Positions 1,723 to 30,679 of a stretch of DNA of 64,000 bases are shown here, piece by piece. The stretch's first letter is position 1. Every line of letters starts with the position of its first letter. The stretch is taken from positions 186,001 through 250,000 of the forward strand of contig NZ_FNVA01000009.1 in assembly GCF_900108185.1 (NCBI RefSeq), in the 5' to 3' direction. This DNA comes from Bryocella elongata. Its GTDB lineage: Bacteria > Acidobacteriota > Terriglobia > Terriglobales > Acidobacteriaceae. Under the pieces are notes generated by a model. It saw nothing but the letters and a program-made list of their open reading frames with translations. It was not told the origin of the DNA and searched no databases. The position numbers were made by a program, and so were the translations under genes.

Positions 1723-4700
1723 TTAGAAGACAAACTCAGCGCCGATACGAATCACGCGCGAAAGGTTGGCGGTGTTGGGATTGAGCTTGCCGAAGGTCGT
1801 TGCCGCCGGCGTGGGCGTGATGATTGGCGTCGTGCCGTTTACGGTGTACGTCTCGCCGCTGGTCAGCGGATCATTGGCCGTGCTGTTCGCCGCGAAGTAC
1901 ACGGGATGGTTGAAGACGTTGTTGAAGGTACCGATGAGGTTGAGCTGGTAGCGCTCCTTGATGTAGAAGCCCTTCTTCACGCGCATATCGAAGAGGAACT
2001 CGCGCGGCGAGCGGGCGCCAGTGAGGGTACGAGGTGCGTTACCCAGCGTTGGGGCTCCGACCGTTCCGGGCGGCGTGCAGCTTACCGGCGTGCCCGTGGA
2101 GTTGACGGTGCAGCCAAAGGCTGCGGCGTTGAGATACGGCGTGAAGGTACCACCGTTCAGGCCGAAGGGATTGTCCTTCCAGTGCGGGTTGATGAGCGGC
2201 ACACCCGGAATGAGGTTGGGCCGAAGGACGTAACCGCTGGGCAGCGCAGCACTGCTGCAGAAGTTCTTGGTGGTGCAGCCATTCGTTCCGTTCGGCGTAA
2301 ACGACACGAAGTTACCGTTCGCACCTGAACTGTTGCCGAAGATGACGAAGTTGGGGTAGCCCGAAGCCACGGTCGCGATGCCGGCAGTGGAGATGTTGCC
2401 AACGATCTGGTTCAACAAGGTGTGGTGCAGATCGAAGCGCTCCCCTTTGCCGAAGGGAAGGTTGGCGTTATAGCCCACCTTGAGGCGGCTGGGCTGATCG
2501 TAGCTGGAGACGGCCCATTCGCCGAAGGCATTGCTCGGGTCCTGCGGTGCTGTCGTACCGAAGTTGCCGAGGCTGCCCGCGTTGGTGTCTGGCACGTTGT
2601 CCATCGACTTCGACCAGCTGTAATAGACAAGCGCCGTGAGGTTGTGGCCGATGCGCTCGATCGCCTTGAGATACAGCGCGTTGTACTCGTTGGTGCCGCG
2701 CCGGGCGTAGCTTTCGGTGATGCTCTGGTTGAAGAAGTTCTGGTACGGATTCAAGCGCTGCAGGTTGGTTTCGGAGACCAGCGAGCTGGTTCCCGGGGTC
2801 ACGATGCCGTAGGTGTTCGTCGAAGAGGCCGCGAGGTTCTGGTGCTGGCTGATCGCATTGTCGATGGTGTTCAGCGAGGGCACATTGATAGCGCCGGCAA
2901 AGCTGCCAACCAGGTGCACGCCGTGCAGGCCCTGGTAGGTGCCTTCGAGCAGCGTATTGTGCAGCTCGTACTGCAGGGTGACGTTGTAGTTCTGCATGTA
3001 GGGCACAGCGGAGGTCTGCTGGATATACGTGGGCGTGAAGCCCTGCGCGGTGGAGATAGCCGTGCCGCGCTGTGCATTCAGGGCTGCATAGGCTCCGGTA
3101 AGCGGGCCAACTCCGTTGGTGATGTAGTCGGTGATGTTCGGCGCATTCACCGAGCCCACGTTGTACGTCACCTGCTGCGCCGAGATGTTGAAGTTAGGAT
3201 CGGGCAGGTTCTCGTAGCCGGTAAGCGGAAGACGCATCATGCCATAAGCAGCACGCGCGGAAAGGTGCGGCGTGGGGGCATACTCCAGACCGATGCGAGG
3301 CTCAAACCCATGCCAGTTCGTGGGCCAGAGATTGCGGCCCAGGCCGCAGGTGCCGGAGAAGCAGAACGCTGCAGGTGAGTTGAGGGTGCCTACGGTGATG
3401 TTCTGATTCAGCAGGATCGTTCCCTGGTTGTTGTACTTCTCGGTGCGGGGCGTCTCCACCTCATAGCGCAGGCCGAGGTTGAGGGTCATGTGCGGCGTCA
3501 CCCGCCAATCGTCCTGAAAGTAGCCGGCGTTGTAGTGCCAGCGATAGTAGCCAGGGACGTTCGTCGGTGCGGCGCTGTAGGTGTTGATCTCACCGAGGAT
3601 GAAGGTTGCTTCCGCGTTGCCGCCGGTTCCGGCCGAGGTGCCGGTGGTGTTGGTCAGGGTCTGCGAGAAGTTGTAGGCTCCGCCGTAGGTCTTGGAGTAG
3701 TCATACTCGTTGGACTGGATCCAGCGCAGGTCCACGCCAAACTGGAAGAGGTGGCTGCCGTGGGTCCAGGTGAAGTCGCCGCCGCCGATGAAGTTCTGGT
3801 CGACATCGGTGTAGGGGGTGGAGGCGCCGAGCTGCAGCGTGGAGGTGCCAAGGGTGCCCAGCGCAGGGAAACCAACCCCAGCGGCCGCAGGCGTCAACCC
3901 GTACTTCGCGCCGAAGTCCTCGGTGAGCGCACCCGCCGGCGGGGTGCGCTTCTCGTTCACGCGCAGGAAGGAGTAGCGCAGCACGCCCACCAGGCTGGAG
4001 CTGAAGGTGTGCGTGTAGCCGATGGCGAGGTCGTTCGTGGCGATCACGTCCGTGGGAACCTGATTGATCGGGCTCGATTGGGACAGCGCGAAGAAGCGTG
4101 GTCCGGAGATGGGGACATCCGCATAGCGCACGTAGATCTGGTTGGAGTTGTTGAACTGATGGTCGATGCGGAAGCTCCAGCGGTTGTCAACGTCCGAGAC
4201 ACCACGCTTGTAGTTCGCATTGTTGCCCGAGTTGTCGTAGGTCCCGTCTGCGTGGTCGAAGGTGACATACGGCCCAGGATTGGAGGGCGTGGGGAGAAGC
4301 GACAGCACGTACTTCGCAAACGGATTAGCCGCAAGCTGGTTGGAGACATCATCCACGCCGTGGGGGCCCGTCGCCTGCGTGTGTGCCGAGCCGAGCGTGC
4401 TGATGGGGAAGCCCTGCGCGTTGGCGGTGCTGTTGATGTAGATGCCGCCGATGCGCGCGGCGTTAAGGGCCGCTGCGTAGCCGCTGGTCTTCAACACGGT
4501 CGGGTCCAGCAGTGTCAGCGAGTCATGCAGATAGCCGGTCAGGTCCTCTGGCGTGTTGAACGAGCCGCGATAGGACTGCGCATTCTGGATGCGGGCCGGC
4601 TCGCCGGCGGCGTAGAAGAAGGTCCTGTCCCTGCCGTTGTACAGCCCGGGGATGCGCACCGGGCCGCCGATGTAGAAGCCGTAGTAGTTCTCATGCTGGG

Positions 4701-5589
4701 CGTTGGGCGCCGTGTTTCCCAGCGGGAAGGCGTTGAAGAAGGGATCGGTGTGCCGCCAGGTGATGCGTCCGTGGTAGGCATTGGTGCCGCTGCGGGTGGC
4801 CTGTACGATGACGCCGCCGCCGGTGCGGCCGTAGCGCGCCGAGAGGCCGGAGGTGATGACTGTCGTCTCCTGCACGACCTCGTTGGAGAGATTGAGGCCG
4901 GTGCGGGCGTAGCTGGCCTGGGTGACGTCGGAGCCATCGACGAGGATCGACCCGGTTCCCGGAGGCGCGCCGGCGATGGAGATGCTTGCGCCGGGGACGA
5001 CGGGGCCGGTGGTGATGACCGGGTTCTCGCCGAAGACACCGCCGGGGACCGAAGGATCGCCCGTGACGCCGGGGACGAGCAGCGCAGCGCCGAGGGAACT
5101 GCGGTCGGGATAGGGCAGGGCCTCGACGATCTGGTGGTCGACGGTGGTTGCGACGTCGGGGCTGGTGGTGGCTACCTGCAGTGCGTCTTCGGTGACGGTG
5201 ACGGTCTCATTGACGCTACCGACCTTGAGCACGGGGTTGACCGTCGCGGTCTGGTCCGCGCTGACGACGATGTTGTGGACGATCTCGTTCTCGAAGCCGG
5301 TTCCGTTGACGGTCATGGTGTAGCTGCCGGGGTTCAGCGAACGGACGCTAAAGACACCGGACTGGTCGGAGCGGGTGGTGAGGCGAACCCCGGTCTCGTC
5401 GCCGACGATCGTCAGCTGCACGCCCGGAATGGCGGCGCCGTGGCCGTCCTTGATGACGCCGGAGAGAGCGCCCTGGCCGGTCTGAGCGAGAAGAGAGACA
5501 GAGTGCAGCGGGGGCAGCAGAAGGGCGGCGGCCAGAGCGAACCGCCACGCCGGGCGAGAGCAGGTGTTGCGAAACGAGAGTAGTGCCAT
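1723..5589 (-). CDS. Oar-like TonB-dependent receptor with carboxypeptidase-regulatory N-terminus
   Basis: Outer-membrane receptor of 1288 residues. A signal peptide (about residues 1-36, ending LLAQ) is followed by a CarboxypepD_reg-like beta-sandwich (GALSGVIKDGHGAAIPGVQL), a plug-like region with TVTEDALQV, and a long beta-barrel ending in IRIGAEFVF with a terminal aromatic residue. This architecture is greatly expanded in Acidobacteriota and is usually linked to glycan or large-ligand uptake. AGGAG sits 4 nt before the ATG. It lies between a GH92 gene upstream and a GH28 gene downstream on the same strand, which suggests an oligosaccharide ligand. That ligand is inferred from context only. 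Confidence 0.9.
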   Translation of the reverse strand: MALLSFRNTCSRPAWRFALAAALLLPPLHSVSLLAQTGQGALSGVIKDGHGAAIPGVQLTIVGDETGVRLTTRSDQSGVFSVRSLNPGSYTMTVNGTGFENEIVHNIVVSADQTATVNPVLKVGSVNETVTVTEDALQVATTSPDVATTVDHQIVEALPYPDRSSLGAALLVPGVTGDPSVPGGVFGENPVITTGPVVPGASISIAGAPPGTGSILVDGSDVTQASYARTGLNLSNEVVQETTVITSGLSARYGRTGGGVIVQATRSGTNAYHGRITWRHTDPFFNAFPLGNTAPNAQHENYYGFYIGGPVRIPGLYNGRDRTFFYAAGEPARIQNAQSYRGSFNTPEDLTGYLHDSLTLLDPTVLKTSGYAAALNAARIGGIYINSTANAQGFPISTLGSAHTQATGPHGVDDVSNQLAANPFAKYVLSLLPTPSNPGPYVTFDHADGTYDNSGNNANYKRGVSDVDNRWSFRIDHQFNNSNQIYVRYADVPISGPRFFALSQSSPINQVPTDVIATNDLAIGYTHTFSSSLVGVLRYSFLRVNEKRTPPAGALTEDFGAKYGLTPAAAGVGFPALGTLGTSTLQLGASTPYTDVDQNFIGGGDFTWTHGSHLFQFGVDLRWIQSNEYDYSKTYGGAYNFSQTLTNTTGTSAGTGGNAEATFILGEINTYSAAPTNVPGYYRWHYNAGYFQDDWRVTPHMTLNLGLRYEVETPRTEKYNNQGTILLNQNITVGTLNSPAAFCFSGTCGLGRNLWPTNWHGFEPRIGLEYAPTPHLSARAAYGMMRLPLTGYENLPDPNFNISAQQVTYNVGSVNAPNITDYITNGVGPLTGAYAALNAQRGTAISTAQGFTPTYIQQTSAVPYMQNYNVTLQYELHNTLLEGTYQGLHGVHLVGSFAGAINVPSLNTIDNAISQHQNLAASSTNTYGIVTPGTSSLVSETNLQRLNPYQNFFNQSITESYARRGTNEYNALYLKAIERIGHNLTALVYYSWSKSMDNVPDTNAGSLGNFGTTAPQDPSNAFGEWAVSSYDQPSRLKVGYNANLPFGKGERFDLHHTLLNQIVGNISTAGIATVASGYPNFVIFGNSSGANGNFVSFTPNGTNGCTTKNFCSSAALPSGYVLRPNLIPGVPLINPHWKDNPFGLNGGTFTPYLNAAAFGCTVNSTGTPVSCTPPGTVGAPTLGNAPRTLTGARSPREFLFDMRVKKGFYIKERYQLNLIGTFNNVFNHPVYFAANSTANDPLTSGETYTVNGTTPIITPTPAATTFGKLNPNTANLSRVIRIGAEFVF

Positions 5590-17992: not shown

Positions 17993-19492
17993 CTAAAGCT
18001 TCTTCTGCAGCTTGTAGGTCAGCTCGAAGTAGCCATAGTTGGCGTTGCGGTTGGTGGTGTAGATGTTGCCGACGACCGTCTTGCCGAAGGCGTGCGCGTA
18101 GTACATGCCGAGCGACAGCTGCGAGGTCATGGCGTAGTCGCCGCTGATGTCATACAGCGAGCTGAAGCTACCCGAGGTGCCGACACCGCTGCCTGGCCGT
18201 CCGGTGAAGCCGAAGACCTTGTTATCGAAGGCGCCGCCGCCCTGGTACCAGAAGTCGCCCGGCGCGGTGAGCTTGAGGAAGTGCATGTCGGTACGGAGAT
18301 CGAGCTTCTTCGATGGCTTGTCGACGATCTGCACGAAGGAGTCGGTGGAGTTCATGAGGTTGTAGAACGGGAAGCGAGCGTAAACGCGCGGCGTGGGAGC
18401 GATCTGGAAGAAGGTGTTGTGCACGCCATCGGTGTTGTTGTTGTCGCCGGTGGAGCGCCAGTAGCCGCCGCGCAGCCAGGGACTGGTGCGGATCGTATCC
18501 ATACGCAGACCGCCTTCAACAGCAACCGCTCCGGCGCGGTGGTCGATGAGTCCCCAGGTACCGAACTGCCCTGCGCCCCAGACGACGAAGTCGATGGTGT
18601 TGCCGCCTGCGGGAAGAGCGGCCACGAGATCTCCGCCATAGGTGCCGATGCGGATGTTCTTGTGGTCGAGCGCGCGGGCTGCGGCAGTGCGGTTGTCGGT
18701 CTTGGTGAGGCCGGTGCGGCCGTCGTGATACCCAATGCCAAAGCCACGCACGATGATCCGCTGCTTCGCGAGCATCCGCGTGTAGCCAAGGTACTGGACA
18801 TCCACGTTGAGTTCGGGGTTGGCATTCATGTTGAAGACGCCCTGCACGGCGCGGCCACCGAATGCAGTGAGGTTCCAGTCTTTGCCGCCGAGGCGGCCCT
18901 CGATGCCATCGAAGGAGCGTTGCCCGTTCGAGAAGCCGAAGTTGCCGACGAGCCGCTGTGCGACGCGGTTGGTCTGCAGCCAGGCGAGGGCTGAGTTCTT
19001 CTGCGTCATCTCCTGCCCTTCGAAGAACTCAAAGCGGCCGATGCGGAGCGTGTCTGCATCGCCCTTAAAGTGGTAGCGCGCATAGCCCTGGCGGAAAGAC
19101 GCTGCGGCGGGGTACTGGTTGTTGCTGTTGGAGGCGTAGTAGGTGCCGCCCAGCCCTAGCTGTCCCTGGGCGGAGACGATGGATACAGCATCGGTGGGGA
19201 GGCCAAGCTCAGCACTCTGTCCAAGCTCGAGCATGTAGTCCCAGGCTTTGATCTTCTGGGCGATGCCGAGGCGAAGCATGGAGTCCTGGTGGCCGTAGGT
19301 CTCGGGGTTCGGAGTCGCGGCGAACCACTCGGTGGCATTGGTGCGCTCACGAAGGAAGAGGCTGAAGGTGACGGGATTGGAAGCGGCGGGGGCGGACGAA
19401 AGAGTGGACGAAGGGGTGGAAACGGGCGCTGTCTGCGCAGCAAGACCCGAAGCACACACCAATGCGGTGAGTGCAAGCAATGCACTTCTCAT
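17993..19492 (-). CDS. Outer-membrane porin, alginate-export-like, at the end of the nitrate locus
   Basis: A 499-residue protein with signal peptide (LLALTALVCASGLAAQ), a Ser/Pro/Ala linker, then alternating beta-strands typical of a barrel, ending YFELTYKLQKKL. The segments RIGRFEFFEGQEMTQ and FSNGQRSFDGIEGR resemble the alginate-export porin family. It is the last gene after the nitrate transporter on the same strand, so passage of nitrate or nitrite across the outer membrane is a reasonable guess. AGGAG precedes the ATG. Alginate itself is unlikely here because no alginate genes are nearby. Barrel prediction is good; the solute is inference. Confidence 0.65.
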   Translation of the reverse strand: MRSALLALTALVCASGLAAQTAPVSTPSSTLSSAPAASNPVTFSLFLRERTNATEWFAATPNPETYGHQDSMLRLGIAQKIKAWDYMLELGQSAELGLPTDAVSIVSAQGQLGLGGTYYASNSNNQYPAAASFRQGYARYHFKGDADTLRIGRFEFFEGQEMTQKNSALAWLQTNRVAQRLVGNFGFSNGQRSFDGIEGRLGGKDWNLTAFGGRAVQGVFNMNANPELNVDVQYLGYTRMLAKQRIIVRGFGIGYHDGRTGLTKTDNRTAAARALDHKNIRIGTYGGDLVAALPAGGNTIDFVVWGAGQFGTWGLIDHRAGAVAVEGGLRMDTIRTSPWLRGGYWRSTGDNNNTDGVHNTFFQIAPTPRVYARFPFYNLMNSTDSFVQIVDKPSKKLDLRTDMHFLKLTAPGDFWYQGGGAFDNKVFGFTGRPGSGVGTSGSFSSLYDISGDYAMTSQLSLGMYYAHAFGKTVVGNIYTTNRNANYGYFELTYKLQKKL

Positions 19493-19599: not shown

Positions 19600-20868
19600 C
19601 TACGCGGCGTCGGGAATCTGCTCCGGCAACACGTCGGCATCGGTGCGCACCACACTATCCGATGCAGAGAGCACACGTCCACCAGCGCCGATCCACGTGC
19701 CCGCCCACTTGCGCGAGACGGCGGCCAGCATCACGACAACGCACGCCGCGAAGGCTGCATAGGCGGCGAAGCCAGGGCCGAAGGAACCCAGGTGCTGCTT
19801 GCTCTGCCCAAGGATGTTTGGGAGGATGCCGCCACCGAGCGCGCCGATCTCACCGATCATGCTGCCGGCGATGGCCGTGGTGAGCGGCCAGCGATGGGGC
19901 ACGAGCTGGAAGGTCGCGCCGTTCCCTGCTCCGAGTGCCGCGAAGGCGACCATGAACAGAGCCGTCGTGGCTCCAAGAGCGGGCGAGAAGGAGAGCCCGA
20001 TGAGAGCGCCGATCACAATGAGGAAGACGCCATAGAGAGCGTTCACGCCGCCAAGTTTATCGGCGAGCCAGCCGCCCACGACGCGGGTCAAGCTGCCGAG
20101 CAGCGTCGCGAACATGGTCAGCGTGCCGGCCTGAGTCTTCGCGATGTGGAACTGCGCTACGTAGAGCGAAGGCAGGAAGGTGGCGAGCCCGAGGAAGCCG
20201 CCGAAGGTGATGATGTAGACGAAGTTGAAGTACCAGCCATCGGCGTCCGTGAGGCACTTGAGGTGCTGACGCAGCGTCTGATGCTGGGTATCCGGTGGCT
20301 CTTTTGCGAAGACGATCATGACGATGATCGGCAGCAGCATGAAGAGGGCCGCGATGCCATACACGTGAGACCAGCCATAGGCCCTGGCGAGACGCGGAGC
20401 GAAGAAGGCAGCGAGCGCCGTGCCCGAGTTTCCAGCGCCTGCGATGCCCATGGCAAGGCCTTTGTACTCCCTGGGGAACCAGCCGGAGCCAAGCGAGAGC
20501 GCAACGCCGAAGCTGGCGCCGGCGGTGCCGAGCAGCACGCCCATGGCGAGAACGTTCGAGAACGAGTGCACGAAGAAGTAACCGAAGAGCAGAGCGACGA
20601 TGATGGTGCTCATCTCGACGATGGCAGCGTTCTTGCGGCCGATGTACTGACTGAGCACACCAAGCGGAAAACGCATCAGCGCACCTGCGAGCGTGGGGAT
20701 CGATACCATCAGGCCGATCTGCGCTGGAGACAGATGGAACTGTTGCGAGATGAATGGGCCCATCGCGCCATTCAGCACCCAGACAGCGAACGTGAAGTCG
20801 AAGTAGAGGAAGGACGCGAACAGCGTGCCCGGATGTCCGGACTTGAGAAACGCTTTGGTGTTGGCCAC
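19600..20868 (-). CDS. Nitrate/nitrite MFS transporter, NarK/NasA type
   Basis: A twelve-helix major-facilitator protein that imports nitrate or exchanges it for nitrite. NarK-family signatures are present: the early FLYFDFTFAVWVLNGAMGPF, the RFPLGVLSQYIGRKN loop, and two Gly-rich segments, GTAGASFGVALSLGSGWFP and AALGAGNGATFQLVPHRWP, typical of the nitrate signature helices. I prefer the GTG at 20868, with AGGAG 6 nt upstream, over the ATG at 20901. About 422 residues. Adjacent nitrate reductase and porin genes support the role. Confidence 0.9.
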   Translation of the reverse strand: MANTKAFLKSGHPGTLFASFLYFDFTFAVWVLNGAMGPFISQQFHLSPAQIGLMVSIPTLAGALMRFPLGVLSQYIGRKNAAIVEMSTIIVALLFGYFFVHSFSNVLAMGVLLGTAGASFGVALSLGSGWFPREYKGLAMGIAGAGNSGTALAAFFAPRLARAYGWSHVYGIAALFMLLPIIVMIVFAKEPPDTQHQTLRQHLKCLTDADGWYFNFVYIITFGGFLGLATFLPSLYVAQFHIAKTQAGTLTMFATLLGSLTRVVGGWLADKLGGVNALYGVFLIVIGALIGLSFSPALGATTALFMVAFAALGAGNGATFQLVPHRWPLTTAIAGSMIGEIGALGGGILPNILGQSKQHLGSFGPGFAAYAAFAACVVVMLAAVSRKWAGTWIGAGGRVLSASDSVVRTDADVLPEQIPDAA

Positions 20869-20999
20869 GAAAGACTCCTGAGAGACACAAGATGAGATCA
20901 CTGCGGACTGCGGTGGTACGGAGTGAGCGAACGTCCTGGTTCGGCTCGGGGTATCCTCGCGGCGGCCATGGGCACGAGGAGAAGTTGATGCGAAACCTG

Positions 21000-23252
21000 T
21001 CAGTTCCAGCTGGTGCGCTCAATCCGCACCGCACACTGCTTGTAGTTGGGCTCGCGGCTGATGGGATCGAAGTCGCCCAGCGTGACGAGATTGCTGTTGT
21101 GCTCCGCAAAGTGGAAGGGCATGAAGACCTGCCCGGGAGCAACGATGCCCGTGATGCGAAGCTCCACATCCGGCACGCTGGCGCGGCGAGAGGTCACGGT
21201 GATGCGATCGTGCTGACGGAGCGAGAGGCGCTCGGCGTCAATGGGGTTCATCTCGAGCCAGGCATTCGGCACCATGGCATCGAGCAACTTCACCTGCCCG
21301 GTCTTGGTGCGCGTGTGCCAGTGCTCGACGGTGCGACCGGTATTGAGAATGAAGTTGAACTCGGCGTCGGGCTGCTCGGCGAAGGGGATGCAAGGCACGC
21401 AGTGCAGGAGTGCGCGTCCGTTGGCGCGTGGGAAGATGCCATCGCGATAGAGGCGTTCGCCACCCCACTGAATGCCACCTGCGTCCTCCACCTGTTGCCA
21501 GGTGAAGCCGCTGTAGTCGCACATGCGGCCGGCGGAGACACGCTGCCACTCGAGCCATGCATCGTGCGTTGAGGTCCAGCCCGGATAGATTCGATCGCGC
21601 ACACCAAGACGTTCCGCGATGGCGACAAAGATGTCGAAGTCAGCACGGGCCTCGCCGGGAGGAACGGCGAAGGCATTCACCTTGCTCACGCGGCGCTCGG
21701 AGTTCGTATACGTGCCTTCCTTCTCACCCCAGATGGCAGCAGGCAACACGAGGTCTGCGTACTCCATCGTGGGCGTGGGATAGAAGCCATCCTGCACGAC
21801 GATGAACTCGGCCGAGTCAAAGGCCTGTTTGAGCAGGTTGTGATTCGGGAAGGAGACGACCGGGTTGGTCGCGATGATCCACAGCGCCTTCACCTCGCCG
21901 CGCACGGAAGCTTCGACGATGTCGGGGTAGGCGAAGCCACGCCTCGTCGGAAGGTCATTTGGGGCGACGTTCCACAATGCCGCAAGCTGGTTGCGATCTT
22001 CTTCGCTCTCGAACTTGCGATAGCCGGGTAACGAAGAGGTGAAGCTGGCCTCGCGTGAGCCCATCGCATTGCACTGGCCGGTGATGGAAAACGGTGCGCC
22101 GCCGGGGCGGCCGATGTTGCCCGTCAACAGCGAGAGGTTGTTGATCGCCGCGACCGTCATCGCACCTTGCGTCGAGTGATTCACGCCCATGGTCCAACCG
22201 ATGAACGCAGACTTTGCGTGACCATAGAGGCTTGCAACGGACTCCAGCACAGCGACGCTCAGGCCTGTGGTCTTGCTGACAGCTTCAGGGGTATAGTCTG
22301 CGACGAAGCTGATGAAGTCATCAAGGCCATCTGCGTGATGCGCGAGGTAACTGCGATCGATGAGCCCATCGCGCAGAAGGATATGCGCGATGCCATTGAT
22401 CAGTGCGATGTCGGAGCGTGGCTTGACCGGCAGGTGCATGTCGGCCATCATCGCGGTCTTGGTCACGCGCGGGTCGACGACAATCAATAGTTGCCCGGGC
22501 CGCTTGCGCAGGCGGTTGCAGAGGATCGGATGGTTGTCCGCGATGTTGGCGCCGATCAGCAGCACAACATCGGCCGACTCCATGTCGGCATACGCGCCGG
22601 GAGGTCCGTCGCTGCCGAAGCTCAGCTTATAGCCGGAGACTGCACTGGCCATGCAGAGCGTGGTGTTGCCGTCGTAGTTGCTGGTGCGGAATCCCAGCTG
22701 AACCAGCTTGCCCAGCGTGTAGAACTCCTCGGTGAGGAGCTGGCCGGTGCTGATAACGCCGAGCGATTCTCTCCCGTGCTCTTGCTGGATGGAACCGATG
22801 CGACTCACCATCACATCGAGCGCTTCGTCCCAGCTGACAGGCTCCAGCGGAGAGGTGCGGCCATTGCGGCGGAGCATAGGCTGCTTCGCGCGGCCAGGCG
22901 CTTCCACGATGAGGTGTTCGCTGAGCCCTTTGGGGCAGAGCTTGCCGAGGTTCACAGGATGATCAGGGTTTCCGCGTGCAGCAACAGGCTTTCCATCCTT
23001 TGTGCCGACCAACATGCCGCAGCCGACTGAGCAGTAGCCGCAGGTGGTCTTCGTCCACTTGTCCGCAACGCGCGATTCCGAGATATAGCCGAAGCGCGGA
23101 TCGTGCGCGTAACGATAGAGACTGCTCTTGTTGTCGAGGCCAAGCCAACGCGTGATGCGCTGCAGCAGCGTGGGCTTGGCGAGAGCGATGCGCTCTTCGG
23201 ATGTAGCGTTGGCGCGCTGGGTCGCCGTATTTTTCTTCGCGATGAAGCTCAT
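21000..23252 (-). CDS. nasA: Assimilatory-type molybdopterin nitrate reductase, catalytic subunit
   Basis: Mo-bisMGD enzyme reducing nitrate to nitrite. With the ATG at 23252 the protein is 750 residues. An N-terminal [4Fe-4S] site uses C71, C74, C78 and C106 (TCGYCSVGC, then KLCPKG). NTTLCMASAV near residue 200 supplies the likely Mo-ligating cysteine. A C-terminal MopB-binding barrel follows. The longer frame from 23555 adds 101 implausible residues and is rejected, because the chosen ATG overlaps the upstream stop as ATGA. There is no Tat signal, so it should be cytoplasmic. It lacks the C-terminal NasA-type BFD iron-sulfur extension. The partner is the upstream fused Fe-S/membrane protein. 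Confidence 0.9.
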   Translation of the reverse strand: MSFIAKKNTATQRANATSEERIALAKPTLLQRITRWLGLDNKSSLYRYAHDPRFGYISESRVADKWTKTTCGYCSVGCGMLVGTKDGKPVAARGNPDHPVNLGKLCPKGLSEHLIVEAPGRAKQPMLRRNGRTSPLEPVSWDEALDVMVSRIGSIQQEHGRESLGVISTGQLLTEEFYTLGKLVQLGFRTSNYDGNTTLCMASAVSGYKLSFGSDGPPGAYADMESADVVLLIGANIADNHPILCNRLRKRPGQLLIVVDPRVTKTAMMADMHLPVKPRSDIALINGIAHILLRDGLIDRSYLAHHADGLDDFISFVADYTPEAVSKTTGLSVAVLESVASLYGHAKSAFIGWTMGVNHSTQGAMTVAAINNLSLLTGNIGRPGGAPFSITGQCNAMGSREASFTSSLPGYRKFESEEDRNQLAALWNVAPNDLPTRRGFAYPDIVEASVRGEVKALWIIATNPVVSFPNHNLLKQAFDSAEFIVVQDGFYPTPTMEYADLVLPAAIWGEKEGTYTNSERRVSKVNAFAVPPGEARADFDIFVAIAERLGVRDRIYPGWTSTHDAWLEWQRVSAGRMCDYSGFTWQQVEDAGGIQWGGERLYRDGIFPRANGRALLHCVPCIPFAEQPDAEFNFILNTGRTVEHWHTRTKTGQVKLLDAMVPNAWLEMNPIDAERLSLRQHDRITVTSRRASVPDVELRITGIVAPGQVFMPFHFAEHNSNLVTLGDFDPISREPNYKQCAVRIERTSWN

Positions 23253-24871
23253 GCGGCTGCCCTCCCATGGGTTCCGCGGTCGCGGATGAAGGTGAGGCCC
23301 ATGCTGAGCGGAACCACCGACACGAAGAAGAGGTAACGATTGAGCAGGACGGCAGCGGTCGCCGCCAATAGCGAAAGCAGCGCCATCCAATGGAGTGGCG
23401 CAAACAGGAAGAGGACTGCCTGAAGGGCACAGATCCAGGAGAGAGCGACACACCACCAGAGCTGTTCCCCGCGGAGATGGTGGAAGCTGGCGCGGTGCTC
23501 GAAGATGGCTGAGGCACGCAGGCGGGCGACGCGAACCATCTGGTTGAGTATCCACACGCCGGCAGTGAGCGCGAGCAGGCGTGGATAGAGCGTGAAGTGA
23601 GGCCGCGCTACTTCAAAGCCGTGGCGATGCAGGAACGCCGTAATGATCAACGCAGGCCGGGCGAGCACGGAGAGGAGTGGAATACCCACGAGAGCCGACG
23701 AGAGGAAGAAGTCCAGCGGCGTGTGGACCATGTTCCAGGAGGGGCGCGCCTTGACGAGATAGATCGATGCGCTCGCATAGGTGCCTGCCACACCGGAGGC
23801 GATTGCCGCCCATGCGAGCGGGGCAACGAGCCGTTGCAGCTGGAGATGCCACGGCAGCAGAGGTGTCCAGGCGCACAAGGTTGCGGCGGTGACAAAGCCG
23901 AAGAACAACGTGAAGCAGAGAACCTCGCGGCTTAGCCAGGAGCGACGCCACATCTTCAGTGCGCGCCATGCGTATGCCGGGCGACCGAGATGGAAGACCG
24001 AGACATTGAGTGCGGCTGCGGTGACGAGCAGGAGAAGCAGCAGGCTTACCGCATCCAGGTTGCGAACGAGGGCAAGACCGCACAACAGTCCGAAGGACGC
24101 TTGCATCGCGGTCGTCATCACGACCAGCGAAGAGTGAGCGTGCTCCAGAGCGATAGCGCCGGTGTCCACCCTTTCGAGCCAGGCTGTTGCCGCAGTGCTG
24201 CTCTGCGGGAGCGTGATGCGGGTCGTCGAGATGGTCTGCCCCGCGGCCGGCATGCCGGGAGACTCTGCGAGAGAATAGTCCTCGGTCCACGCGATCTTGT
24301 TCACGATCTCGATCTGGATGGCGTTCTCGGGACAAGCGTTGGCACAGGCGGGCTCGCGGTTGTCGATGAGCCGCTCGCGGCACATGTCACACTTGCCCAC
24401 GACGCCGCGCTCGGGATTGAACTGTGGCACGCTGTAGGGGCAGTTCCAGACGCAGTACTGGCAGCCAATACACGCGTCGGCGGAGTGCATCACGATGCCG
24501 GTGAGTGGGTCCTTTTTGTACGCGTCCACAGGGCAGCCCTTCAGGCAGTCCGCGCTGATGCAATGGTTGCAGCCCATGGAAAGATAGGTGCGGCTTACCT
24601 GCGGATAGACACCGCCTTCGAGTTCGCCCACGCGACGCCACTTGATGTCTGCGGGATTGCCGTTCTGCTCATTGCACGCAACCTCGCAGGAGCGGCAGCC
24701 GATACACTTCGTCATGTCGAAGTGGAAGCGATATTGTTCGCCTTCCTCGAGCGGACGGCTGGGGATGAGCGAAGCGACCAGCTGCGGAGAAGCACCACCC
24801 TCAAGAAGCGTGAGCCGCACCAGCTCGGCGCTGTCGGTGTCCATCGCGCGATCATGTAGTGGAAGTGCCAC
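23249..24871 (-). CDS. Fused DmsB-like four-cluster ferredoxin and DmsC-like quinol-linked membrane anchor
   Basis: A 540-residue fusion. Residues about 45-190 form a DmsB/NrfC-type protein with sixteen cysteines in four groups (56/59/62/66, 101/104/109/113, 134/137/140/144, 161/164/176/180), enough for four [4Fe-4S] clusters. Residues about 245-540 form a DmsC-like anchor with about eight membrane helices, which in relatives oxidises quinol. There is no Tat signal, so the ferredoxin part faces the cytoplasm. GTG at 24871 has GGAG upstream; ATG at 24844 is an alternative without a good site. It is coupled to nasA by an ATGA overlap, so it probably feeds electrons from the quinone pool to nitrate reductase. 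Confidence 0.85.
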   Translation of the reverse strand: MALPLHDRAMDTDSAELVRLTLLEGGASPQLVASLIPSRPLEEGEQYRFHFDMTKCIGCRSCEVACNEQNGNPADIKWRRVGELEGGVYPQVSRTYLSMGCNHCISADCLKGCPVDAYKKDPLTGIVMHSADACIGCQYCVWNCPYSVPQFNPERGVVGKCDMCRERLIDNREPACANACPENAIQIEIVNKIAWTEDYSLAESPGMPAAGQTISTTRITLPQSSTAATAWLERVDTGAIALEHAHSSLVVMTTAMQASFGLLCGLALVRNLDAVSLLLLLLVTAAALNVSVFHLGRPAYAWRALKMWRRSWLSREVLCFTLFFGFVTAATLCAWTPLLPWHLQLQRLVAPLAWAAIASGVAGTYASASIYLVKARPSWNMVHTPLDFFLSSALVGIPLLSVLARPALIITAFLHRHGFEVARPHFTLYPRLLALTAGVWILNQMVRVARLRASAIFEHRASFHHLRGEQLWWCVALSWICALQAVLFLFAPLHWMALLSLLAATAAVLLNRYLFFVSVVPLSMGLTFIRDRGTHGRAAA

Positions 24872-24942
24872 GCTTGCTTCGCTCCGGTCGAGGTGCAGGT
24901 GCTGGTGCTATTGCGCATTGGGCTTGCAGCGTTGCTGCGGGC

Positions 24943-26718
24943 TTAGTAGACGTCCTTGTGATAACGGCCGTCGTCGTGCATCTGCGATACGTACTCTTTC
25001 GCGGCATCCGCGCTCATCGCGCCGTGCGTTTCGATGAGACTATGCAACGCCTGGTCGACATCCCTGGCCATGCGCGAAGCGTCGCCGCAGACGTACACGC
25101 GAGCGCCCTCGGCGAGCCAGCTCCAGAACATCGAGCCATGCTCGATCATGCGGTCCTGCACGTAAATCTTGTGCGCCTGGTCGCGCGAGAAGGCGGTATC
25201 GAGCCGCGTGAGATGGCCGCTGGCCGCCATGGAAGTCAGCTCCTGCTCGTAGAGGAAGTCCGTGCTTGCGCTGCGCTCACCGAAGAAGAGCCAGTTGCGT
25301 CCCTTGTGGCCGAGCGCTTCACGCTCATGCAGAAAGGAACGGAATGGAGCGATGCCGGTGCCGGGGCCGATCATGATGATCGGTGTGCTGCTTTCCTGCG
25401 GAAGACGGAAGCGCTTGTTGGGCTGGATGTACATGGGGACGCGCTCGCCCATCGCAATGCGCTCCGACAACATCGTGGAGGCGACGCCGCCGCGCTCGCG
25501 ATTGTGAGAGCGATAGCGAACCACCGCGATGGTGCAGTTGAGTTCGTTGCCATGCTTCGCGGGGCTGGACGAGATGGAGTAGAGGCGCGGCGCCAGGCGT
25601 GGCAGCATTGCGAGCAGCTCCTGCGGCGATTCGATCGCGCCCGGATACTCGAGGACGAGGTCGATGAGCCCGCGATCCCAAAGGAAGGAGTCGAGGTGCG
25701 CGCCCTGCTCGGCAGGAAGCAGCGCGGCTAGGGTCTTGCATTGTGTCTTCTCGGCGAAGGCCTGCACGATCTTTCGCGTCAGGCGGGTGTGCTGATAGTG
25801 ATGCGACAGCGCCTGCTGCAGCGTGCAGGAACCGAACTTCGGAACTTCGACTGGAGCATCCGGGACGAAACCGAGCTTCGCGATGGTCTCATCGACCAAC
25901 GCAGGATCGTTCTCGGCAAGCACACCGCAGGCATCCCCGGCTTCATACTTCACCGATTCATCGAGCTGCAGTCCGAGATGGATGGTGAGCTTGCTTGAGA
26001 TGTCATTGGTCAGGGCATGACGGGCGACGATCTCTGCGTGAAACGGGTTATCGCGCGTGTAACGCGGGGCCTCGGTCGAGGGGCTCGCCGGCGCAGTGAC
26101 GGCGGTGCTGCCTGAAAGTGCAGGAGCCTTCTCCGTGTCGATCGCGGAGAGGCGAGCCAGCGTTACATCCTTCCATGCGGCGAACGGCGGATCGACATCG
26201 ACGTCGCTTTCGACACGAGCTTCGATACGCTGCGCACCAAGCTCCGCGAGACGCTCATCGAGCTCCACACCGAAGCGGCAGAACTGTTCATAGCTGCTGT
26301 CGCCCAAAGCGAAGACGGTGTACTTGAGCTTGTTGAGGACGATGGACTCGGCCAGCAGCGACTCACGGAAGCTCTTCACGGAGTCAGGTGCTTCGCCATC
26401 TCCATAGGTGCTGGCGAAGATCACGGCATGCGTCTGCTTCGCGAGATCGGCCGGCGCGATGGAAGACAGGCAGGCGAGCTGGGGCTGATGCCCGTGCGTC
26501 TTCAGCTCCTTCGCGAACTTCTTCGCAAGGCGCTCTGCGGTGCCGCTCTGCGAGGCGAAGTACACCGCTACGCTGTGTGACGCGCGTGCTGGAAGCGCCG
26601 GGAGACCCGGCACAGGTGATGCGGAGAACATGCCGGCAAGCAGACCGTTGAGCCATGCGCGCTGCGCAGGCGAGAAGGGAGCGTTCTCGGGAATGTATGG
26701 AACCGGTGTGTGGCTCAT
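24943..26718 (-). CDS. CysJ-like NADPH diflavin reductase in the nitrate/nitrite locus
   Basis: A 591-residue NADPH-cytochrome-P450-reductase-type flavoprotein. An N-terminal helical piece (FSPAQRAWLNGLLAGMFSA) is followed by a flavodoxin domain (ASQSGTAERLAKKFA, ASTYGDGEAPD, ALGDSSYEQFC), an FAD domain with RLYSISSSP, and an NADP domain with GPGTGIAPFRSFL, ending in the usual HKDVY. It resembles the sulfite reductase alpha subunit, but it overlaps the nitrite reductase gene by 4 nt (ATGA), so its likely job is NADPH supply to nitrite reductase. It could also serve sulfite reduction. Confidence 0.88.
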   Translation of the reverse strand: MSHTPVPYIPENAPFSPAQRAWLNGLLAGMFSASPVPGLPALPARASHSVAVYFASQSGTAERLAKKFAKELKTHGHQPQLACLSSIAPADLAKQTHAVIFASTYGDGEAPDSVKSFRESLLAESIVLNKLKYTVFALGDSSYEQFCRFGVELDERLAELGAQRIEARVESDVDVDPPFAAWKDVTLARLSAIDTEKAPALSGSTAVTAPASPSTEAPRYTRDNPFHAEIVARHALTNDISSKLTIHLGLQLDESVKYEAGDACGVLAENDPALVDETIAKLGFVPDAPVEVPKFGSCTLQQALSHHYQHTRLTRKIVQAFAEKTQCKTLAALLPAEQGAHLDSFLWDRGLIDLVLEYPGAIESPQELLAMLPRLAPRLYSISSSPAKHGNELNCTIAVVRYRSHNRERGGVASTMLSERIAMGERVPMYIQPNKRFRLPQESSTPIIMIGPGTGIAPFRSFLHEREALGHKGRNWLFFGERSASTDFLYEQELTSMAASGHLTRLDTAFSRDQAHKIYVQDRMIEHGSMFWSWLAEGARVYVCGDASRMARDVDQALHSLIETHGAMSADAAKEYVSQMHDDGRYHKDVY

Positions 26719-28556
26719 GCCATCACCTCCGTGGATTTTTCTGAGCAGATGGAGCGCAGCTGCTCCACGCTATGGCGACGCGTAAAGGTGAGGAAGCTCT
26801 CACCGGTGTGCCGCGTCGCCAGGTAGAAAGTGAAGAGGCGCTGGAGCATGGGCAGCACCTCGGTGTACTTCATGGCGGGAAAGAGCTGCCGGGCGATGGC
26901 CTGGTCGTTGTCTGCGCCGCCGCCGAGGTTAACCTGGTAACCCTCCTCGCCGCCTACCTTCACGCCCATCAAGCCGATATCGCCGATGTAATGCTGCGCG
27001 CAGGAGTTGGGGCAGCCGGTGACGTGCAGGTTGACCGGTTGGTCGAGGATGAAGAGCTTGTCGAGCGAGCGAGCGATTTCGAGCGCATGGGTCTTGGTGT
27101 CGGCCTGCGCAAACTTGCAGCCCTGGCTTCCGGTACAGGCCACGGTGCCGCTCATCACGTGGCCTGCTGAGGTCTCGAGCCCGGCAGAGGCCAGGGTCTC
27201 GCAGAGATCGACGGCGCGCTGCGACGAGACGTTGGGGATCAGCAGGTTCTGCCATACCGTGAGACGCACTTCGCGCGAGCCGAACGAATCTACGGCATCG
27301 GCGATGGCGCGAGCCTGTTCGATGGGGAGCCAGCCAACGGGCGTGCATACGCCAACGTAGCTGAGCCCGGGCTGCGACTGCGCGTGCACGCCGAGGTGTC
27401 CGGCGCGATCGATGGGGCCACGCGGCTCGCACTCGTCCGCGGCGATACGCAGGATGGGGAATGCGAGCTTCGTCTCGGTCTCGGCGAGAAAACGCTCTAC
27501 CCCTTGCTTACCGGGCCCCCACTTGTCAATGAGGTACTTGAGCCGCGCCTTCCTGCGATCGGTACGGTCGCCATGTTCGGCGAAGACACGCACCATCGCC
27601 GCAGCGACAGCCACCAGTTGATTGGGCTCCAGCAACAGGCCGCAGTCCGTTGCAAACTGCTTGTGCCCGGTGATGCCGCAGAGCAGCACGCGGAAGTACA
27701 CGCCCGCGGGAACGCTGCGTCCTTCGCCCACCCGCACGGCGACGAAGCCGATGTCGTTAGTGTCCGCGAGTGCGCTGATGGCGCCGCCGTTGTCGAAGGC
27801 GATATTGAACTTGCGGGGAAGGCCGAACATGTCGCGCGAGTTCGAGATGTAATTCTGCAGCGCCTCGGCAAACGGCTGTACGTCGATGAGCTCCTGCGGG
27901 TCGAAGCCGGAGATGGGCGACGCTGTAATGTTGCGGATGTTGTCAGCACCGGAGCCATGCGAGGACATACCGAGCTTCCGCACCGCATTCAGGACGTTGA
28001 CGACGTCCTTCGGCGCGAACTCACGCATCTGGATGTTGGCGCGGGTGGTGAGGTCGAGACGCCCGTTGCCATAGCGCTCGGCGATATCACAGAGGCCGCG
28101 CAGCTGGGTGCTGGTGAGAACACCGCCCGGGACGCGCATGCGAAGCATGAAGGAATCCTGCGCGGGCGCTACATGGAAGAGGCCATGAAACTTCATACGA
28201 TAGCGTCGCTCGGGGTTCGGCGCGGCGTTCGTCGACGAGCACTCCAGCAGCTCATCCCACAGATCCAGGGGATTGCGCTGGTACTTCCAGAGTTCTTCCT
28301 GGCAGAGATCCGAGATCGGAGTGCCAAAGAAGCTGGGCTCTTCCACTGGCGCGGCTAGATTCACGCCGGCCTGCGTGGGATCAACGGTCAAGGAGCCGGA
28401 TGCCGTCTGTCCAACAAAGGGCAACCGGTTCGCGACACCGGCAAAGAAGCCACGGAGATATTGCTCCTGCTCGGCAGTGAAACCCGAGCCCGTGCGCTGC
28501 AGAGCATGCTGCAACGGATTCGCGTGCGTCGAGTTGGACGGCGTCGACATCATCAA
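26715..28556 (-). CDS. nirA: Siroheme nitrite (or sulfite) reductase, NirA/CysI family
   Basis: A 613-residue hemoprotein reducing nitrite to ammonia by six electrons. The coupled siroheme/[4Fe-4S] ligands are CTGSQGC (about residue 473) and GCPNSC (about residue 514). Two ferredoxin-like half domains are present, the first with PGGVLTSTQLR. The N-terminus carries FTAEQEQYLRGFFAGVANR, similar to a segment in the diflavin reductase encoded next. It is the first gene of the nitrate operon; the ATG at 28556 follows an AAGG. Nitrite is favoured over sulfite because of the neighbouring nitrate reductase and transporter, but the two families are hard to separate by eye. Confidence 0.85.
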   Translation of the reverse strand: MMMSTPSNSTHANPLQHALQRTGSGFTAEQEQYLRGFFAGVANRLPFVGQTASGSLTVDPTQAGVNLAAPVEEPSFFGTPISDLCQEELWKYQRNPLDLWDELLECSSTNAAPNPERRYRMKFHGLFHVAPAQDSFMLRMRVPGGVLTSTQLRGLCDIAERYGNGRLDLTTRANIQMREFAPKDVVNVLNAVRKLGMSSHGSGADNIRNITASPISGFDPQELIDVQPFAEALQNYISNSRDMFGLPRKFNIAFDNGGAISALADTNDIGFVAVRVGEGRSVPAGVYFRVLLCGITGHKQFATDCGLLLEPNQLVAVAAAMVRVFAEHGDRTDRRKARLKYLIDKWGPGKQGVERFLAETETKLAFPILRIAADECEPRGPIDRAGHLGVHAQSQPGLSYVGVCTPVGWLPIEQARAIADAVDSFGSREVRLTVWQNLLIPNVSSQRAVDLCETLASAGLETSAGHVMSGTVACTGSQGCKFAQADTKTHALEIARSLDKLFILDQPVNLHVTGCPNSCAQHYIGDIGLMGVKVGGEEGYQVNLGGGADNDQAIARQLFPAMKYTEVLPMLQRLFTFYLATRHTGESFLTFTRRHSVEQLRSICSEKSTEVMA

Positions 28557-28585
28557 CCTTCCCTGTGGGTGCGGCGACCAATGAG

Positions 28586-28685
28586 ACGACGAGCCTGGCG
28601 GGAATCACGGAACGAGTTGATGACGGAGCTGCACGAAGACGAGCGCAGTCACACAACACATACGTGAAGGTGTCAGGCTCGTCGT
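28586..28685 (-). promoter_or_regulatory. Long-range 12-bp inverted repeat in the nitrate operon leader
   Basis: The minus-strand leader holds ACGACGAGCCTG (28685-28674) and its perfect complement (28597-28586), separated by 76 nt, ending 29 nt before the nirA start. In RNA they would close a multi-branch structure, which includes CTGCGC/GTGCAG. With an ANTAR regulator encoded opposite, this is a candidate antitermination or translation-control element. I could not find unmistakable tandem hexaloops with the ANTAR consensus. Confidence 0.45.
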
Positions 28686-28783
28686 GGAGCGGGCAAAACT
28701 TTCTGAGTATCGGATGGCGAGCGCGTCAGGGGGCTCAACCAGAGAGAACACCGTTGCGGTCAGGGCTGCGGTGTAATAGCGCG

Positions 28784-28813
28784 AGTATAGGGGCAAATCC
28801 GCCTGCCGCGCAA
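28784..28813 (-). promoter_or_regulatory. Candidate promoter of the nitrate assimilation operon
   Basis: On the minus strand TTGCGC (28813-28808) is separated by 18 nt from TATACT (28789-28784). This would give a leader of about 220 nt before nirA. An inverted repeat, CTGGAG (28814-28819) and CTCCAG (28831-28836), abuts the -35 box and could be an activator or repressor site. Confidence 0.45.
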
Positions 28814-28896
28814 CTGGAGATTTATATTGCCTCCAGGGCTGGCCCACTCTGGAGCAGCCTCACGCGACGCGCGGAGGCGCTATGGCGGAGCAAACT

Positions 28897-28926
28897 TTGG
28901 TGCGTCACTCGCGAACCAGCTAGAAT
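28897..28926 (+). promoter_or_regulatory. Candidate promoter of the HemD-GAF-ANTAR gene
   Basis: TTGGTG (28897-28902), an 18-nt spacer and TAGAAT (28921-28926) give an untranslated leader of about 60 nt, ending in GGGAGAG before the ATG at 28994. It is divergent from the nitrate operon promoter. Confidence 0.4.
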
Positions 28927-28993
28927 CGAAATATTCACGACTTTTCAATGTATCTTCGCTTCGAAGGCCGCCAACCTCCACCGGGAGAGACTC

Positions 28994-30679
28994 ATGCCTC
29001 ACGCCAGCTTTGATGGACTTCGAGTGCTTTCGCTCGAGTCCCGGCGTGCCCGCGAGGTCGAAAAGCTGATCCGCACCTACAACGGCGAAGCCATCGTTGT
29101 GCCGTCGATGCGTGAGATCTCCCTCACCTCGAATACGGTTGCGCTCGAGTTTGGACGCCGACTGCTGGCAGGTGAGTTCGACGCCATCGTGTTCATGACG
29201 GGAGTCGGCGTCGCCAAGCTCGTAGAAACACTCTCGAGCACCTTCGACAAAGAGAGCATTCTTGCCGAACTGCGCAAACGAGAGATCATCGCACGCGGCG
29301 TGAAGCCACTGCAGGTGCTGCGCGAACTGAACGTCTCCGCTGCTGTGACGACCGCCGAGCCGAGTACGTGGCGCGAGGTCGTCGCGCAGATGGAGAAGAA
29401 GTACGGCGAACGCCTGAGCGCGATGAGCGTCGCGGTGCAGGAGTATGGTGCGACCAACCCCGAGCTCATTGCAGAGCTGGTGGCACGCTGCGACGAAGTG
29501 ATGAAGGTCCCTTTGTATCAGTGGGGGCTGCCGCTGGACATCGCTCCTCTGCAGCAGACGGTGCGTGATCTCATCGATGGCAACATCGATGTCGTGCTGT
29601 TTATGACGGCGGTGCAGGTGATTCATCTGTTTCAGGTGGCAACCGAGATGGGCGTCGCCACCGAGCTCCGCAGCGCCCTGAATGCCACGGCCGTGATTTC
29701 AGTGGGACCGACGACGACCGAAGAGATCCTGCACTACGGCTTCAAGCCGGACTTCGAACCTTCGCGCCCACGCATGGGCTTCATGATCAATGAAGCCGCG
29801 CAGTACTCGGGCAAGGTGCTCGCTGCCAAGCGCAGCCGCGTGCCGGAGGACGAGGTCTCTTCCCTGCTCGATGTGCCGCGACCGAATCTTCCCGCAGAGT
29901 CAGCTCCGCTTGCAGTGCAACATACGCATGCCGTGCCGCAGGTCGCGTACTCCACACCCACGATGGCGGGCTTTCGCGATGGCCTGGCTCCGTTGGATGT
30001 ACTGGAGCAGGTTTCCAGCAGCCTCACGTCTTCCGATCCGCTGCATGTGGTGCTCTCGCGCATCGTCGCCTGCGTCTGCGCGATCGTGCCGTGCGACTCA
30101 TGCTTCATCTACACGCTGGAAGAGGACAAGCTGGTGCTGCGCGCATCGCGCAACCCTCATGTCGGGGATATCGACCAGTTTCGCATCGCTGTTGGCCAGG
30201 GTGTGACTGGTTGGGTTGCCGAGCATCGCGAGCCGGTTGCAATCTCAGAGCGTGCCAGCGACGATCCTCGCTTTGCGGCGTTCATGCAGATTCCTGAAGA
30301 TACCTTCGAAGCGATGCTGTGCGTTCCTGTGCTATGCGCGGGCGGCGTCGTAGGTGTGCTGAATCTGCAGCACCGCAAGCCGTACCACCATACCGAGCTG
30401 GAGCGGCGGCTTCTGGCTACGATCGGCGTACTGGTGGGTGCGGAGATCGAGCGTGCAAGGCTCGAGACGGTGAACCTGCAGCTTACCGATCGGCTCGAAT
30501 CGCGCAAGGTCATCGACCGCGCGAAGGGGCTGCTGCAGCGCGATCTGAAGATCAGCGAAGACGAAGCGTATCGCATGATGCAGAAGGAGAGCCGGCAGCG
30601 TCGCCGCTCGATGCGCGAGGTCGCGGAGGCCATCCTTCTCTCCGAAAGCATGCGCAACCCGCGTGCCTCTGCCACCTGA
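28994..30679 (+). CDS. HemD-like / GAF / ANTAR fusion, probable nitrate-locus regulator
   Basis: A 561-residue three-part protein. Residues about 8-265 match uroporphyrinogen-III synthase (HemD) fold segments (AIVVPSMREI, DAIVFMTGVGV, VGPTTTEEILHYGFKP). Residues about 335-490 form a GAF domain (VGQGVTGWVAEHREPVAI, AMLCVPVLCAGGVVGVLNLQ). Residues about 495-555 form an ANTAR RNA-binding antiterminator domain (ESRKVIDRAKGLLQRDL, SEDEAYRMMQ). I take the ATG at 28994 with GGGAGAG upstream; the frame open from 28565 is not coding before it. ANTAR proteins such as NasR and NasT control nitrate operons, and the actinobacterial nitrate regulator NnaR also carries a HemD-like domain. Whether the HemD part is catalytic or senses a tetrapyrrole is unknown. 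Confidence 0.85.
   Translation: MPHASFDGLRVLSLESRRAREVEKLIRTYNGEAIVVPSMREISLTSNTVALEFGRRLLAGEFDAIVFMTGVGVAKLVETLSSTFDKESILAELRKREIIARGVKPLQVLRELNVSAAVTTAEPSTWREVVAQMEKKYGERLSAMSVAVQEYGATNPELIAELVARCDEVMKVPLYQWGLPLDIAPLQQTVRDLIDGNIDVVLFMTAVQVIHLFQVATEMGVATELRSALNATAVISVGPTTTEEILHYGFKPDFEPSRPRMGFMINEAAQYSGKVLAAKRSRVPEDEVSSLLDVPRPNLPAESAPLAVQHTHAVPQVAYSTPTMAGFRDGLAPLDVLEQVSSSLTSSDPLHVVLSRIVACVCAIVPCDSCFIYTLEEDKLVLRASRNPHVGDIDQFRIAVGQGVTGWVAEHREPVAISERASDDPRFAAFMQIPEDTFEAMLCVPVLCAGGVVGVLNLQHRKPYHHTELERRLLATIGVLVGAEIERARLETVNLQLTDRLESRKVIDRAKGLLQRDLKISEDEAYRMMQKESRQRRRSMREVAEAILLSESMRNPRASAT

Follow-up and report, generated by a model that had tools for sequence, protein, structure and literature searches.

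The gene at 28994-30679 of the window, by which we mean the whole 64,000-nucleotide stretch of Bryocella elongata DNA analyzed here (contig NZ_FNVA01000009.1, positions 186,001 to 250,000), probably encodes a one-component RNA-binding regulator, likely an activator, of nitrate assimilation, acting through two hairpins, P1 and P2, in the nirA leader. According to the mechanism that we propose, the ANTAR domain of this HemD-GAF-ANTAR fusion would bind the P1/P2 hexaloop hairpins in the leader at the 5′ end of the nirA operon mRNA, and this binding would let the operon be expressed. In the clade to which the window belongs, the bound P2 would stay intact, its 3′ strand being kept from a competing long helix. 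The GAF domain would report nitrogen status and the HemD-like domain a tetrapyrrole, the latter as others have proposed for NnaR. From the sequence comparisons presented below, which concern the domain architecture, the leader element and ANTAR features, the placement before nitrate and nitrite genes, the co-occurrence with NirA and the intact HemD residues, we infer binding of this RNA by the fusion, activation as its effect, and the ligands of the two sensor domains.

The gene and its domains are located as follows:

28994..30679, + strand: HemD-GAF-ANTAR regulator gene, 561 aa (Pfam; alignment with 16 relatives)
29057..29788, + strand: HemD-like domain, residues 22-265, NnaR-like subtype (PF02602 (HEM4/HemD), E 2.2e-26; NCBIfam; Thermus HemD 1wcx)
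30041..30448, + strand: GAF domain, residues 350-485 (PF01590, E 8.3e-16; 3trc, 3ci6)
30479..30637, + strand: ANTAR RNA-binding domain, residues 496-548 (PF03861, E 1.1e-19; aligned to EutV 6wsh and NasR 4akk)

As the preliminary description of this DNA had suggested, the Pfam search places HEM4, GAF and ANTAR in one chain. The same database gave no match in the fusion to a NIT domain at E≤0.001, nor to an OmpR-type winged helix, the C-terminus being the ANTAR domain. The reading frame has no stop upstream as far as 28565, and the start at 28994 fits the 16 aligned relatives, which begin exactly at the M-x-HASF stretch or within one residue of it. Among open-licence PMC papers, no published description of a HemD-GAF-ANTAR or HEM4-ANTAR regulator was found.

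The structure predicted from an alignment of 31 sequences has a mean pLDDT of 79.8, with values below 50 for residues 283-348, and a pTM of 0.48, for which reason the placement of the domains relative to each other is not trustworthy. An unbroken helix (residues 468-518) runs from the GAF into the ANTAR domain in this prediction. Foldseek matches the N-terminal part to the uroporphyrinogen-III synthase of Thermus (3d8r, E 1.5e-16; 1wcx, TMt 0.85) and the middle part to PtsP GAF domains (3trc, E 2.5e-11, TMt 0.85). By both sequence and fold, the PtsP domains 3trc and 3ci6 are the solved structures nearest to the GAF domain of the fusion. EI-Ntr/PtsP responds to glutamine and 2-oxoglutarate, which suggests a nitrogen-status input, and the GAF domain thus probably reports nitrogen status. 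The domain also contains a C-x-x-C pair, C367 and C370 (window 30092-30103), that is invariant in 31 of 31 sequences, and a further cysteine, C448, present in 28 of the 31. The invariant pair makes a redox or metal input possible, and an input of redox, metal or NO through the GAF cysteines is conceivable.

We now turn our attention to the genes that face the fusion, all of them on the opposite strand:

26715..28553, − strand: nirA, siroheme-type nitrite reductase (NF007126 NirA family, above cut-off; ATG at 28553, ORF from TTG 28556)
24943..26718, − strand: CysJ-like flavoprotein reductase (profile matches)
23249..24871, − strand: fusion of an FeS protein with a DmsC-like membrane anchor (profile matches)
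21000..23555, − strand: NasA-like molybdopterin oxidoreductase, the ORF start being probably too early (profile matches)
19600..20901, − strand: NarK-family MFS transporter (profile matches)
17993..19492, − strand: Alginate_exp-type porin (Pfam)

This row had been called a complete nitrate assimilation operon, which is a fair term for uptake and both reduction steps. At 21000-26718, the electron partners that accompany the nitrate and nitrite reductases, a CysJ-like flavoprotein and an FeS-DmsC fusion, are in our judgement unusual for an assimilatory system. Elsewhere, the window encodes two large PF25183-type outer-membrane beta-barrels with an N-terminal CarboxypepD_reg (1723-5589 and 57622-61011 (−)).

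The suggested link of the fusion to nitrate assimilation holds beyond the divergent nirA row of the window. A full fusion is found in 61 of 200 genomes of the order (in G082 as two overlapping pieces), and each of the 50 genomes with NirA at E<1e-200 has it (Fisher's p 9e-37, a value that ignores shared ancestry). In eleven of the 61 fusion genomes NirA does not reach this threshold; G131 and G153, among these eleven, contain partial or fragmented matches. Gene neighbourhoods were counted in the fetched flanks for L033-L091, the 59 fusion loci whose records are named. The nirA gene is present in the flanks of 34 of them and is divergent in 33; nasA and dmsBC occur without nirA at two (L077, L090), and nirB, or the small gene after nirB, adjoins four (L080, L081, L083, L086). 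At L081 only this presumed small gene is seen, without nirB. At one locus, on a short contig (L047), there is the porin alone. At the remaining 18 loci, several on short contigs, nirA, nirB and nasA are all absent from the flanks; L082 among them has a CysJ-like fragment and L064 the gene that occupies the porin position at other loci. Some of the unlinked fusions are second copies in the same assembly as a linked one (L066 with L036, L088 with L042). These 18 loci and the 11 genomes without NirA indicate that some copies of the fusion do something else. In a phylum-wide sample of 396 genomes, with three candidates scored per genome, full-length fusions were seen only in the family of the window.

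Some further observations were made in the course of this survey. The nitrate-unlinked fusions at L068, L070, L074 and L088 have neighbours in common, namely a two-component system whose kinase is of the propeller type and a large glycoside hydrolase resembling MGH1. In two genomes that lack NirA at the threshold, there are matches to only the first 128-129 residues of the HemD part, with 59-60% identity (G038:C1:1737051-1737431, G049:C2:2384128-2384508), and these look like fusion remnants. The loci L039 and L064 come from MAGs labelled Rhodanobacteraceae and are likely mis-binned acidobacterial contigs.

The leader of nirA contains the following features:

28784..28789, − strand: TATACT, a candidate −10 hexamer for nirA (found by eye)
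28719..28736, − strand: P1 hairpin with the loop CCTGAC and a single C.C mismatch in its stem (leader comparison)
28677..28690, − strand: P2 hairpin GCTC[CACGAC]GAGC (leader comparison; match to the covariance model R1 at 28675-28738)
28674..28685, − strand: 5′ arm of a competing 12-bp helix, which takes up the P2 3′ strand (leader folding)
28586..28597, − strand: 3′ arm of the same helix, ~30 nt upstream of the nirA start (leader folding)

Written on the nirA strand, the P2 consensus is GCTC[CNNGAN]GAGC. With C1 and G4 of the loop required, P2 is present in 32 of 35 nirA leaders, with weaker forms in L045, L058 and L059; loop position 5, not a search requirement, is A in 29 of the 32. When the criterion demands G4, C-G closure and a stem but leaves C1 free, P1 is found upstream of P2 in 22 of the 32 leaders, versus 1.6 in dinucleotide-keeping shuffles, and not in the other 10. 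Position 1 of the P1 loop is C in 21 of the 22. G4 and the closing C-G pair, being search requirements, are true by construction in the counted leaders, and the support therefore comes from the excess over the shuffles. The distance from the end of the P1 loop to the P2 hairpin is 25-46 nt, that is, ~20-40 nt after the P1 stem.

The C1/G4 form of the loops emerged from the direct comparison of the leaders. The canonical ANTAR motif, with A1 and G4 in both loops, was rejected, with 0 occurrences in the 35 leaders versus 0.25 expected. For the window leader, a known Rfam family could likewise be dismissed, the sole match at E≤5 in 28400-29100 being a microRNA model on the + strand with 24.8 bits versus a gathering threshold of 93. 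At the DNA level, 36 of 200 genomes contain the pattern GCTCCNNGANGAGCNNTGA, at 38 places in total, versus 5 places when it is read backwards. Of these 38, 23 are found upstream of nirA at a distance of up to ~250 nt, and the other 15, located elsewhere, include one in the B. elongata genome itself; the nirA leader of the window is one base short of the pattern and is thus outside the 38. For the shorter GCTCCNNGANGAGC, the B. elongata genome has 16 occurrences (48 backwards), which means that the P2 hairpin alone is not a specific marker.

The arms of P2 are palindromic and nearly invariant, and P2 alone hence gives no covariation. This would also suit a scenario in which GCTC-N6-GAGC is the DNA operator of another regulator and is not recognized as RNA by the fusion. 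We consider that scenario very improbable, however. The P2 loop is conserved asymmetrically, as seen from the A at position 5, and the site in the window is located downstream of the candidate −10 hexamer. In addition, P1 has a different stem that obeys the same loop rule and covaries. Its covariation is 0.271 versus 0.102 shuffled in alignment A2, which was made for building a model and holds 20 of the 35 leaders (15 being omitted as near duplicates or with atypical P1/P2), and 0.232 versus 0.088 in A3 (35 distinct rows), both figures being optimistic because the A2 P1s were partly picked by pairing and A3 was fitted to the model.

The protein side can be compared with the ANTAR systems for which the target code has been described. 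According to the cited parts of PMC7496416, the RNAs selected by NasR contain two stem-loops, each closed by a C-G pair and bearing a hexaloop with a preference for A1 and G4. The EutV structure, as given in the portion of PMC8934654 cited here, has the protein reading base G4, with A1 making no specific contact. The EutV residues that contact G4, R142, K149, E160 and Y164, correspond to R504, K511, E522 and Y526 of the fusion, once an offset of two between the EutV numbering and the printed chain is allowed for. The first three are conserved in 31 of 31 sequences and Y526 in 30 of 31. The methionine plug of EutV, M172, is replaced by R534 in the fusion (31/31), and it is doubtful whether a hydrophobic plug defines the ANTAR family. 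Reported spacers are 2-25 nt for ANTAR targets (PMC8164766) and, in the cited section of PMC3369931, 5-12 nt for eut targets. Judged at the sequence level, the fit of the nirA leader and the fusion to the NasR and EutV rules is good, not identical.

The covariance model R1 has one good match in the B. elongata genome, which is located at nirA and belongs to the training set (E 1.4e-8); the next has E 0.067. Over 150 genomes of the family, matches at E≤0.1 occur in 45, mostly weak, and at E<1e-3 in 15, which include some genomes of training loci. All 15 carry the fusion (in two pieces in G082 and G240), and their matches are located just upstream of nirA in 13 cases and upstream of nirB in two (G136, G217). 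In this search, 35 candidates were scored per genome with strict filters, and absence elsewhere is therefore weak evidence. Among the window and L033-L091, matches at E<1e-3 outside the training set were obtained for L055, L050, L034, L086 (nirB), L065 and L039, of which L034 and L055 are near duplicates of training loci. Weaker matches, with E of 0.001-0.1, were found for L042, L049, L077, L090, L063, L059, L036 and L058, those of L077 and L090 preceding dmsBC-nasA. In 21 other HemD loci (L092-L112), nothing better than E 0.17 was obtained.

Some R1 matches are on the opposite strand (L061:6772-6821, L048:6547-6582, L043:5880-5910, L227:4996-5047). They have E values of 0.03 to 1.4, plus 0.0039 in L227, each weak alone, and likely represent a second copy of the element, carried by the leader of the porin or porin-position gene that is divergent. 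The copy at L061, for example, contains GACAC[CCTGAC]GTGTC, and the porin-side copies have in addition a P2-like hairpin with six or seven loop bases. Autoregulation through the same element was also considered and rejected, as within the window there is no + strand R1 match near the start of the fusion; the two + strand matches have E 0.62 and 1.6, at 31886 and 35680.

These data also bear on the option that another ANTAR protein, for example a stand-alone GAF-ANTAR, reads the leader while the fusion has another job. Stand-alone GAF-ANTAR genes, 44-58% identical to the C-terminal part of the fusion, are indeed present in many genomes, and 18 of the 59 fusions are not beside nirA, nirB or nasA. 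On the other hand, all 15 genomes with a strong element carry the fusion, which is the usual neighbour of the element, and we therefore regard this option as rather improbable.

As to the mode of control, the preliminary description had proposed RNA antitermination. Of this, the RNA level of the control stands, a two-hairpin element of the ANTAR type being present in the nirA leader, while strict antitermination would be only one possible mode, as neither a U-tract nor a terminator-like site was found around the window leader in a scan of 28450-29050. Neither did a consensus scan of the same region yield a sigma-70-like promoter. Ten of the 32 leaders, namely the window, L033-L040 and L087, have a competing helix that is significant relative to shuffles (p≤0.05), with L033-L035 being near duplicates. 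In minimum-free-energy folds, 22 of the 32 leaders have the 3′ strand of P2 paired with downstream sequence, and the whole leader of the window folds no better than shuffles (z −1.29). The comparisons give good support to RNA-level control of the nitrate operon, and the natural reading is regulation by binding of the protein to the leader RNA, which may act on transcription or on translation.

It is a real possibility, not far short of even, that the same protein and RNA element act on translation, mRNA stability or Rho access and not on an intrinsic terminator. In addition to the missing terminator-like site near the leader, this would be consistent with a competing helix that is significant in only 10 of 32 leaders and has its 3′ arm ~30 nt before the nirA start. 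P2, however, is ~120 nt upstream of that start, too far to cover the ribosome site, and the targets of NasR and EutV act by antitermination according to the cited sections of PMC3369931 and PMC7496416.

We now consider the HemD-like domain. The preliminary description had left room for a catalytic HemD that is the only copy of the genome, and this can be set aside. B. elongata has a separate hemD on another contig that scores better (E 4.4e-49 versus 6.4e-27 for the fusion), and each of the 61 fusion genomes has exactly one HEM4 gene more than it has full fusions. HEM4 was also counted in 18 further genomes, and 17 of them have at least two copies; the eighteenth, G427, has one and had come up only through its GAF-ANTAR match. 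The HemD of the fusion and the other HemD of the same genome match different NCBIfam HemD models. The best ones for the fusion are NF004584 and NF005568/PRK07239, none of which reaches its curated cut-off; the latter we take to be the NnaR-type model.

An anticipated loss of HemD residues is not borne out. A comparison of the regulator HemDs (58 and the window) with 29 others of the subtype, the ambiguous L092 being placed among the latter, yields 49 positions at which the two groups have the same residue with ≥93% conservation; a single weak switch is seen, V36 versus A. A loss of residues that would mark a dead enzyme was not seen, and the domain retains what is conserved in its family. With the fold and these 49 positions intact, the HemD of the fusion looks able to bind its usual tetrapyrrole. 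By analogy with NnaR, and from fold and conservation, we infer that it probably reports hydroxymethylbilane, uroporphyrinogen III or a relative on the siroheme path; sensing of a siroheme precursor in particular is only plausible.

HemDs of this type stand alone in other Acidobacteriota, where some adjoin a siroheme-synthesis gene (PF13241, PF14824) and purH, and others ATP synthase genes. Another Acidobacteriota family encodes HemD-HemE proteins (L232:542-2650 (−), L233:2012-4084 (+)), in which a HemD of the same subtype is joined to uroporphyrinogen decarboxylase, and has a separate HemD in the same genomes.

One could also envisage that the HemD domain of the fusion is a working uroporphyrinogen-III synthase that raises siroheme for NirA, which would make the protein enzyme and regulator in one. 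The 49 conserved positions shared by regulator and other HemDs, with one weak switch, the fusion of the subtype to uroporphyrinogen decarboxylase and its location beside a siroheme-synthesis gene in some loci are all in line with this. We nevertheless find it unlikely, because all 61 fusion genomes have a separate HemD, and because the HemD domain of Streptomyces NnaR is reported to be without activity in the cited parts of PMC6277429 and PMC11162112. The role of that domain is called unclear in the cited part of the latter.

What is new here is an NnaR-like HemD module joined to an ANTAR output, with an altered target loop. More generally, we suggest tentatively that the HemD-like domain may be a portable tetrapyrrole sensor for nitrate assimilation, joined in the course of evolution to a DNA-binding output in NnaR of actinomycetes and to an RNA-binding one in Acidobacteriaceae, and that it may, together with a GAF domain for nitrogen status, gate a small nitrate regulon by means of a two-hairpin RNA, the new C1/G4 loop code of which is paired with the plug arginine. 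The same kind of HemD with a different output, in the same pathway and in another phylum, argues that HemD is the sensor. The question of the HemD ligand thereby becomes testable with a short RNA as the readout, and the ANTAR target code would widen to C1 loops. Such loops would be missed by models that require A1, and the ANTAR regulons of Acidobacteriota, perhaps also elsewhere, may thus be under-counted. Acidobacteria are abundant in soils, and their decision on nitrate use therefore bears on soil nitrogen cycling.

Finally, we compare the fusion with the known systems. With the actinomycete HemD-OmpR protein NnaR it shares an N-terminal HemD-like domain of similar subtype, present as an extra copy, and, according to the cited parts of PMC6277429 and PMC11162112, the association with nitrate and nitrite assimilation genes. 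NnaR differs in having a DNA-binding winged helix and in its occurrence in actinomycetes, whereas the fusion has a GAF and an RNA-binding ANTAR domain and is found in Acidobacteriaceae. NasR, the NIT-ANTAR protein of Klebsiella, has the same one-component ANTAR design and a nitrate leader with two hexaloop hairpins, C-G closure and G4 (cited sections of PMC7496416), but it has a NIT domain and A1 where the fusion has HemD and GAF domains and a C1 target. EutV, the receiver-ANTAR protein of Enterococcus, has in common with the fusion the G4-contact residues and a two-hairpin target (PMC3369931, PMC8934654, in the parts cited), and in the clade of the window also an overlap of P2 with a competing helix. 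It carries a receiver domain, in contrast to the fusion, the system of which has the plug arginine, a longer spacer and no U-tract terminator. Control of nitrate assimilation by an ANTAR protein is shared, lastly, with NasT/NasS. In that system (PMC3795266), NasT is reported to be a separate RNA-binding protein released by NasS, while the fusion combines the sensors and the ANTAR domain in one chain.
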